DNA of 64,000 nt. Origin: Piscirickettsiaceae bacterium. Lineage in GTDB: Bacteria > Pseudomonadota > Gammaproteobacteria > Nitrosococcales > Methylophagaceae. The notes beneath the pieces are model-generated. The model worked only from the letters and a program-made list of their open reading frames with translations, had not been told where the DNA came from and searched no databases. Position 1 is the stretch's first letter; every line of letters begins with the position of its first letter. Of the stretch, positions 45,760 through 52,177 are shown in pieces. The stretch covers positions 186,001-250,000 of the forward strand of contig JABSQM010000005.1 in NCBI GenBank assembly GCA_013215805.1, written 5' to 3'. Both the position numbers and the translations under genes were made by a program.

Positions 45760-46893
45760 CTAATTAATAGGACTTGGCTTAGAAACTTGTTCCATTAAGT
45801 CATTGTTCCATGCGCCTTCAACTGAAACATGTGCAGCAGCACCAAGCATAATAGATTCAATCAAATTATGATTTACATATGCATATATACCTGGTTGTTG
45901 AAAAGTATATAATGCAGCAACAGCTTCACCGCCCACCACAGACCAACTCTGAAGGTTGGTAGCTGGTGCATCATTAAACGAACCACCACGCCATACTAAG
46001 TCACCGTGACCGCCGATTAAATGTACACGTGAATCACGATTAGCTTGTGAATGGATAAATAAAACAGTTTCACCAACCTTAGCCTTCATAGCATGTTTGC
46101 CGGTGATAGCACCAACTTTACCATTGAAAGTAAGATGTGTCGGTATTAAGGTTTTCATTACCTCAAATGTATCACCCATAGCTTCTGCAGGCGAAGAATA
46201 ACGTTTGAATTCACCCTCTTCATCTTGAGGAACATACCAATCTTGTTCTCCGATGTAATAACCTTTGTCATAAGAAACACTATTGCCTGTCTTATCTGTG
46301 AGGCCATTACGTGGCAATACCATAATCACGCCATTCATACCTGATACCACATGGAAAGGTATCATTACACCACCAGGTGCGCAATGATAAACAAATACGC
46401 CAGATTTAGTAGCTTTAAATCGTAGAACAGCCTCTTCACCAGGAGCCACCTCTGTCATTTGAGCGCCACCTAAGGCACCTGTAGCTGAATGAAGATCAAT
46501 ATTGTGGACCATACTATTAGTTGCAGGATTCTGTAAGGTTAACTCAACGTAATCATTCTTGTGAACGATAATTATTGGACCCGGATTTGAGCCTTCAAAC
46601 GTCATTGCTTGAACGAATACGTCCTCCGCAATTTCCATCTCTTTTTCAACGATCTTCATTGTCATGGCAATAATTTTAGGAGCGCCTATGGCAACTTGCT
46701 CATGTGCAGGTAAGAAGGGCGGTGCCACCAAAGTCTGAGTAACGCGTTTTAGACCCGAGATATCAGATTCTACTCCAATTTTGCCCACTTCTATCGATTC
46801 GCCAGCCACTATCGTGGTAGATAAAAAAGGGACAAATAACAAAGAGGATGAGAGAATGACACTTCTTCCCCACTTTTTGTACAACGATTTCAT
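45760..46893 (-). CDS. nirK: Copper-containing nitrite reductase (NirK/AniA)
   Basis: Reduces nitrite to nitric oxide in the periplasm. The 377-residue protein has an N-terminal signal sequence (cleavage near residue 30) and two cupredoxin domains. Type 1 copper ligands H130, C171, H181 and M186 and type 2 ligands H135, H170 and H342 are all present, as are catalytic D133 and H291. GGAG lies just before the ATG. A perfect FNR-type box is 85-98 bases upstream of the start codon. ccoG is the next gene upstream on the same strand. No NO reductase gene is in the window. Confidence 0.96.
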
Positions 46894-46949: not shown

Positions 46950-46991
46950 ATTATGCGCTATAAACATACATAAAGTATTGATATATGTCAA
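46950..46991 (-). promoter_or_regulatory. FNR-type box and -10 of the nirK promoter
   Basis: On the minus strand TTGACATATATCAA (46991-46978) fits TTGAY-N4-RTCAA perfectly. A -10 hexamer CATAAT (46955-46950, five of six) places transcription at about 46943. The box centre is then at -41.5, the class II FNR position. The implied leader is 50 bases. Confidence 0.75.
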
Positions 46992-47095: not shown

Positions 47096-48520
47096 TTAAT
47101 TGCGTGTGGGTGCAATAAACATACTTTCATACCGTGCCGTAATCATTGGCTCAGATATTGCAGTAGCCTTAAATATAATAGGAACAAGATCTGATGTAAG
47201 GTTTGCTTCTGCCACCTTCACGAGAGCTGTAATCGGAACTATTTTACCAGGTTTCACCGTAAAAATATTTTTCACACCATGCAAGGAGGCACCTTTTAGA
47301 CCTTCGATATGATATTCAATGTCAATATTTTCCTTAGTTTTGTTGAATAATTTTAATGTATATTTATTCTGTATTGAACCATCACTGAGCCTTACGAATA
47401 AAGGCTGACGCTCATGAATTACCTTAAACTCTGTTGGTGACAAATGCATAAATCCATATACCACACTCAACAATGAGCCTAATAGTATTAAAGTATAAAT
47501 AAACACCCTGGGGCGTTTTATCAGTGATATAGATTGTTCATTATGGTGTAATTCTTTATAAGAAGCATATCGGATCAAACCACGGGGCTGATTTGTTTTG
47601 TCCATAATACTATCGCAAGCATCGATACAAACGCCACAGGTAATACAGCCCTCCTGTTGACCTTTTCTGATATCGATGCCAGTTGGACATACAGCAACGC
47701 ATACTTTACAATCAATACAACTTCCATTGGAAATATCCATTCCATCTTTTTTCAACTTTCCTCTAGGCTCACCGCGTTCAAAATCATAAGCTGGCAGTAA
47801 CGTATCTTGGTCATACATTACACCCTGTAGCCTCGCATAGGGACATAACCAAAAACAAACCTGCTCACGCATGAAACCAGCAAAGCCATAGGTAAATACG
47901 GCAAATGTTGCAAGAATTAACCAAGCGGCCATTGGCGCTTGCAGAGTAAAATAATCCCCCCAAAGCTGAAAGACATCAGTAAACCATGCCACAAATGACA
48001 ACCCTGTTAATAACGCAATCATCAACCAAAGAGTGTGTTTTGATAAAACACGCATGGTTTTATTAAACGTCCACTGTGCATTTCTAAATTTTTGTGCTTT
48101 TGAGGGAGTATTGCCTTCAAGTTTAGTTTCAATAAATGAATACACGTCAGTCCAAACTGTCTGAAAACAAAAATAGCCACAAAACACCCGCCCAGCAATA
48201 CTGGTCACTGCAGCTAACAAGATAGCAAAAAATAGTAGGGTAAACGACAACATCCATATATCTTGAGGAAATATGGTTATGGAAAAGAAAGTAAAATGTT
48301 GATTAGGAATATCAAATAGGATCGCCTGCAATCCATTCCAACGAATATATGGGCCTAAAAAAAAGATCAGCCAGACGGACATACCTAGCCATTTTAAATT
48401 CCTAAACTTACCCTTCATTCGTTTAGCAACAATTTTAAGGCCTCCATCATTAATGTCCCACTCCGTAATGTCCTTATAGATGCCTACATTAACAGCAGAT
48501 TCTGCTTGATCATTATTCAT
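47096..48520 (-). CDS. ccoG: Cytochrome c oxidase (cbb3) accessory protein CcoG
   Basis: Membrane iron-sulfur protein required for copper delivery to cbb3-type oxidase. The 474-residue protein has about five membrane spans, the motifs GRVFCGYFCFQTVW and CFWLCPYARLQGV, and two 4Fe-4S motifs (CIDCKVCVAVCP and CITCGVCIDAC), followed by a periplasmic Ig-like domain. ccoNOQP are not in the window, so the oxidase genes must be elsewhere if present. No good FNR box precedes it. Confidence 0.94.
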   Translation of the reverse strand: MNNDQAESAVNVGIYKDITEWDINDGGLKIVAKRMKGKFRNLKWLGMSVWLIFFLGPYIRWNGLQAILFDIPNQHFTFFSITIFPQDIWMLSFTLLFFAILLAAVTSIAGRVFCGYFCFQTVWTDVYSFIETKLEGNTPSKAQKFRNAQWTFNKTMRVLSKHTLWLMIALLTGLSFVAWFTDVFQLWGDYFTLQAPMAAWLILATFAVFTYGFAGFMREQVCFWLCPYARLQGVMYDQDTLLPAYDFERGEPRGKLKKDGMDISNGSCIDCKVCVAVCPTGIDIRKGQQEGCITCGVCIDACDSIMDKTNQPRGLIRYASYKELHHNEQSISLIKRPRVFIYTLILLGSLLSVVYGFMHLSPTEFKVIHERQPLFVRLSDGSIQNKYTLKLFNKTKENIDIEYHIEGLKGASLHGVKNIFTVKPGKIVPITALVKVAEANLTSDLVPIIFKATAISEPMITARYESMFIAPTRN

Positions 48521-51299: not shown

Positions 51300-52177
51300 T
51301 TATATATTAGACAGATTTATCAGCCAAGATATTAGGATGACCTGAGGAATAGTAACTAGCAGTAAAAATAAAGCCACTTTCCACGATCTAGTTGTTTCTC
51401 GTAGAGACATGATTTCAGTGTAATCGGTATAGACTCCCGTTATTAAAAATGCAAAGCTATTTCTTGGAGCATTGGCATGTGTCAATACATCGGAAGCAAT
51501 AGGAGTAGATCCTTCTGAACAAATTTCTAAAATAGTAGCTACAATTAACGTTATTCCTAAGACGGATGATGTAGCACCAAAATAGGTTTGGAAATTATCT
51601 ATTGGCATTAATGTCCGAATAGCTGCTGCTATCAATACCCCTGATAATAACCAACGTACAATCATAATAGAATCCTTGATACCCTTACAAAGCATGGTTA
51701 TCCACCAATCTAGATCGCAATTAGTTGCTCGAAGACGTTTTTTTGCCTCAGACCAAAGTTCGAAATTATTAAATTATATTTGATTTGGATTGGAAGGCAA
51801 AGACTTAATTTTCACCAACTAATTAAATATTAATCCACTAATAATTCCTATAATCATGGAGGGCATTATAAGCAATAATGTCCATGACCATTCTATAACG
51901 AGATCAATATCACAGTTAATGATAATGAATTACAAGGACTTGCGATCAAAAAAGCCATAACTTGACCTAGGCTAGCCCCTCTTCAATATAAACGCATTGC
52001 TATCAATAAAATTCCATGGCTACATAAATCTAAAAATAATCCCATAATGGTTGCTCGTAATATACCGCTACAACTTTCTCCTCTGCCTAATGTTGATGAT
52101 ACAAATTCACGGGGTATACGTCCCAACATACCAACCAATAACATCCCAACAGCTAACCCCATCCACATACTATCCAT
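51300..52177 (-). pseudogene. Permease (YraQ/DUF318 family) pseudogene
   Basis: Two ORFs and the sequence between them make one broken gene. The N-terminal part (51986-52177) has DLCSHGILLIAMRLY, then TGA at 51983-51985. The frame goes on with RGASLGQVMAFLIASPCNSLSL, is shifted near 51898, and later reads FELWSEAKKRLRATNCDLDW into the C-terminal ORF (51300-51695), which carries ILEICSEGSTPIASDVL. Family members are predicted multi-span permeases with paired Cys-Ser motifs. At least one nonsense change and one frameshift make function unlikely. Confidence 0.8.

Follow-up and report, generated by a model that had tools for sequence, protein, structure and literature searches.

The FNR box of Neisseria aniA, a nirK gene, is positioned around -41.5. 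This box lies directly upstream of the gene, and denitrifiers possess DNR boxes (CTTGATnnnnATCAAG) at nirK, nirS, norB and nosZ (PMC1274295). Among the systems closest to the locus described here is Methylophaga nitratireducenticrescens GP59, in which potential FNR and NarL sites are described upstream of nirK, the nirK transcript rises anoxically, early in nitrate reduction, and FNR-linked control of the gene has been proposed (PMC11526790). Members of the Methylophagaceae also occur as symbionts in bathymodioline mussels, and the described genome of the Idas symbiont comprises 2.17 Mb (PMC10199937).

The window under study, a stretch of 64,000 nucleotides from a Methylophagaceae genome, contains on its minus strand an intact nirK gene (45760..46893) for a copper nitrite reductase of 377 aa. 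Its product matches the family model TIGR02376 with 478 bits (curated cut-off 296) and retains the copper-ligand motifs in the NirK alignment. With a dN of about 0.16 and saturated dS against several relatives, nirK is under purifying selection. In the NirK tree the protein is found beside the Methylophagaceae group, on a long branch and with moderate support (92/88).

Upstream of nirK, the 14-mer TTGACATATATCAA (46978..46991, minus strand) fits the FNR consensus TTGAY-N4-RTCAA at all ten defined positions, with zero mismatches. A gap of 22 nt, the class II spacing, separates this box from a -10 hexamer CATAAT (46950..46955, minus strand), and a further 56 nt lead from the hexamer to the nirK ATG at 46893. 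When CATAAT is set at -12 to -7, the predicted start (+1) falls on 46943 and the box is centred at -41.5. The sequence therefore agrees with the earlier note as far as the perfect FNR-type box, the CATAAT hexamer and the -41.5 centre are concerned.

Homologous perfect boxes are present 62-146 nt before the start codon in the majority of the nirK genes most closely related to this one, namely those of Methylophaga NORP33, NORP65, NORP93 and 355-202, of the Methylophagaceae DT_62, UBA652 and C14-03, and also of Colwellia and Psychrosphaera. CATAAT or a -10-like hexamer is located mostly 22 nt past the box in these promoters, and both hexamer and spacing are repeated in several relatives. Because the layout of box, 22 nt and -10 recurs before most Methylophagaceae nirK genes, the nirK box is ancestral and no chance match, and box and spacing together have the architecture of a conserved class II FNR-type promoter. 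Of the features by which a class II FNR-dependent promoter is recognised, the consensus box, the centre about 41.5 nt from the predicted start set by the -10, and the conservation across orthologous promoters are present; a working regulator of the FNR family to go with them was not found in this genome.

The assembly comprises 27 contigs with 1.15 Mb (1,149,260 bases) and 34% G+C, and is rated 100% complete; the genomes of two congeners reach 2.1 and 2.4 Mb. ORFs of at least 100 aa span about 67% of the genome, which looks like a reduced and decaying one of the presumably host-associated kind. In the window, a 131-aa ORF (51300-51695, minus strand) matches the ArsP_1 permease profile only from position 13 to 132 of 294, under half its length, and may be a gene remnant.

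The PF00027 (cNMP_binding) domain belongs to the CRP/FNR/DNR proteins. A PF00027 profile search of the assembly gave no match, whereas 10 of 14 control genomes match. The FNR model NF008365 detects one locus only (C6:289745-290347), which scores 70 bits, where intact family members reach about 270, and contains 11 in-frame stops (4 TGA, 2 TAG and 5 TAA). Compared with the FNR of relatives G001 and G002, stops are scattered throughout, a cluster cysteine is lost (CQDC to YQEC) and the DNA-binding motif SMSRGDIANHLGLAVET is interrupted by a stop (SIS*GDIAHYIGLAVET); the nucleotide alignment contains several frame-breaking gap runs. This sole FNR-family remnant of the genome lies on the minus strand (L096:1431-2200, corresponding to G000:C6, about 289660-290430) between ompW and hisB, and G001, G002 and other family members, including two congeners, possess an intact fnr at exactly this position of the ompW-fnr-hisB synteny. 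In the present genome fnr is a pseudogene, and sequencing error is an implausible source of its stops because the neighbouring hisB and ompW are intact. The FNR/DNR homologue that the earlier note had predicted elsewhere in the genome, and whose absence it had named as refuting its reading, is not confirmed: the only homologue is this pseudogene, and searches of the genome turned up no regulator of the FNR family that could still work. The remaining, weak HTH_Crp_2 matches were considered as hidden FNR/CRP homologues, but their sequences read as those of Fur, of a penicillin-binding protein and, on a small contig, of a replication-initiator-like protein.

Perfect boxes are no rarity in this A+T-rich genome: 20 are observed in the 1,149,260 bases, against 12.6-16.1 expected under Markov models of order 1-5, and many of them fall within genes. 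The further TTGAY-N4-RTCAA sites that the earlier note proposed to look for thus occur near chance level, and a genome-wide surplus is rejected as a sign of an active regulon. For a single nirK intergenic region of approximately 200 nt, by our own arithmetic, about 0.003 perfect boxes are expected; it is place and ancestry that make the nirK box real. The identical 14-mer occurs in a second copy (G000:C6:194043-194056) within a lengthy tract of decayed DNA, the next gene being about 630 nt away; on these grounds it is dismissed as a second target and is probably due to chance. Another perfect FNR box (G000:C6:162604-162617) precedes a porin-like gene by about 100 nt; as this gene has no orthologue in the six relatives searched, it is rejected as an ancestral target.

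Two other boxes can be followed through the relatives. The ompW box reads TTGATCTGGATCAT in G002 and TTGATTTAGATCAT in G001, each with one mismatch to the consensus, and TTGATCTGGATTAC here; the ccoN box reads TTGATCCAGATCAA in G002 and TTGATCTATAAATCTAA here, at nearly equal distance from the gene. By this comparison both ancestral boxes have decayed in the present genome. A functional FNR or DNR that binds the nirK box and induces the gene at low oxygen would accord with the perfect box, its exact class II spacing and its conservation in relatives, as well as with the FNR-linked control of nirK proposed for GP59 (PMC11526790), but the only FNR homologue is a pseudogene, no PF00027 protein is present, the other ancestral boxes are decayed and there is no genome-wide excess of boxes, all of which leaves such a promoter very little probability.

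Neutral rates of decay were taken as per-base substitution in the dead fnr, counted at those first and second codon positions where four intact copies of the gene from other genomes do not vary. At these rates the chance of an untouched box is 0.13, and that of box and -10 together 0.03, both of which are probably underestimates, since the rates include changes that predate the death of fnr and thereby tend to overstate decay. One intact box out of three (nirK kept, ompW and ccoN broken) is unremarkable given this value. Since neutral survival amounts to about 13%, the retention of the box is unreadable as selection for oxygen control and offers no proof of it; the earlier claim that the kept promoter reflects selection for regulated nitrite respiration loses its basis, also in view of the decayed ccoN and ompW boxes. 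What stands of the earlier reading is the class II FNR architecture, as an inheritance; the working, selected oxygen switch does not stand, given the fnr pseudogene, the lack of a PF00027 protein and the neutral survival just mentioned.

We conclude, with a probability of roughly 0.8, that the nirK site is a class II FNR promoter which was inherited and has outlived its regulator, most likely a leftover and no working oxygen switch. In the ancestor, to judge from the FNR family, oxygen-sensitive FNR would have occupied the -41.5 box at low oxygen and brought RNA polymerase to CATAAT. In the present reduced-genome Methylophagaceae bacterium fnr has decayed into a pseudogene, molybdopterin nitrate reductases and norB are lost, and nirK is held by purifying selection. 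As fnr is a pseudogene while nirK is conserved, nirK would now be transcribed without FNR, constitutively or in response to another signal; candidate routes, put forward tentatively, are the surviving CATAAT -10 alone or a sigma-70 promoter TTGACA-17 nt-TATGTT. Against a leftover speak the perfect match of the box at all ten defined positions, which is not required of a relic, and the neutral survival of only about 13%; furthermore, the assembly, being in 27 contigs, could conceivably hide another FNR-like gene between them.

The sigma-70 route deserves separate mention. The first half of the box, TTGACA (46986..46991, minus strand), is a candidate -35 with 6/6 matches and is seen in no compared relative. 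A mechanical scan pairs it at 17 nt with a possible alternative -10, TATGTT (46963..46968, minus strand; 4/6 matches, predicted start near 46956), and the resulting 10/12 matches give the top score among the compared nirK promoters. After the death of fnr, TTGACA might accordingly have been kept, or have arisen, to serve together with TATGTT as a constitutive sigma-70 promoter, part of the box now being selected for this new role. This co-option is possible but doubtful: shuffled sequence yields such pairs just as often (2.6 expected against 2 found), the second half-site ATCAA is left without a role, and the pattern was spotted after the fact. It is rather unlikely that the FNR half-site TTGACA was indeed selected as a -35 once FNR had died, which would have made nirK constitutive and NO-producing in a cell with no NorB-type NO reductase.

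Regulators of other families were also considered in place of FNR, the leftover box aside. NsrR-, NarL- and NorR-type regulators and a sigma-54 activator were not found in searches of the genome. Its single Rrf2 protein (L249:1429-1974) adjoins sufB, possesses one cysteine and fits the SUF regulator best, below the cut-off of that family, with a poor NsrR fit of 22 bits; because of the sub-threshold score and the single cysteine, its Fe-S cluster may have been lost. The single response regulator, accompanied by its kinase, is of the OmpR/PhoB type, and the sigma-54-activator match is ClpX. Control of nirK by NsrR, NarL or NorR is rejected on these grounds. That the suf-linked Rrf2 protein, the OmpR/PhoB-type regulator or Fur took over nirK could be argued from their place among the few regulators detected and from the control of nirK by the Rrf2 protein NsrR in other bacteria (PMC1274295). 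Such a takeover is nevertheless improbable, as none of these families is known to bind TTGAT-N4-ATCAA, and the Rrf2 protein has the scores and the lone cysteine given above.

The genomic surroundings of nirK are altered as well. Upstream of it lies ccoG (47096..48520, minus strand; TIGR02745, 441 bits), a cbb3 oxidase accessory gene, whereas in relatives G018 and G004 nirK follows the nor gene cluster. Neither norB nor a NarG/NapA-type protein was found in the genome, in which the sole COX1-fold protein is CcoN and the sole molybdopterin protein reads as NuoG. The relatives' NorB, NorC and most other nor-cluster members (gene names read from sequence) have no orthologue here. The nitrate reductase and nitric oxide reductase of a denitrification pathway are absent alongside NirK, which appears to be an orphan, with nitrite to NO as the sole denitrification step. 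Near a contig end (G000:C13, L203:10560-13803), an ATPase of the CbbQ/NorQ type is encoded next to a CbbO/NorD-like protein with a VWA domain; the pair is diverged from the relatives' proteins (52% and 33%) and may represent CbbQ/CbbO, involved in RuBisCO activation rather than in NO reduction. An intact 400-aa protein (G000:C1:56554-57756) shares 61% identity with a 403-aa protein encoded near nirK in UBA652; it is probably the NO-stress protein NnrS, and it is retained though the nor genes are gone.

The locus is a natural experiment in which a target gene outlives its regulator: a single genome still shows what is left of fnr, along with an intact box and a pair of decayed sister boxes. It also advises caution in inferring regulation from sites alone, as a perfect and phylogenetically conserved box is located in a genome unable to use it. 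The orphan NirK, producing NO from nitrite where no NorB-type reductase was found, raises the question of NO removal. The library searched yielded no paper dealing with this lineage or with orphaned FNR boxes, and nothing pertinent on binding sites that symbionts retain after losing a regulator.

Among the systems compared, the nirK promoters of the free-living Methylophagaceae NORP33 and UBA652 share with the present one a perfect FNR box, set 22 nt ahead of a -10 that resembles CATAAT. The compared family members mostly have an intact fnr; the present genome has the pseudogene instead, lacks the nor cluster and the nar genes, and carries TTGACA as the first half of its box. Neisseria has a functioning regulator and, in addition, NsrR and NarP sites at nirK; no counterpart of any of these was found here. 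DNR boxes of denitrifiers share the core box with the present site, in which the outer C and G are replaced (A before, T after); in contrast to those denitrifiers, no DNR-type gene was found in this genome. In genome reduction, symbionts lose transcription factors and keep target enzymes. The loss of the regulator and the retention of its target enzyme are common to such reduced symbiont genomes and the present one, but in the present one the fnr pseudogene can still be seen alongside two boxes that have decayed and one that has not.
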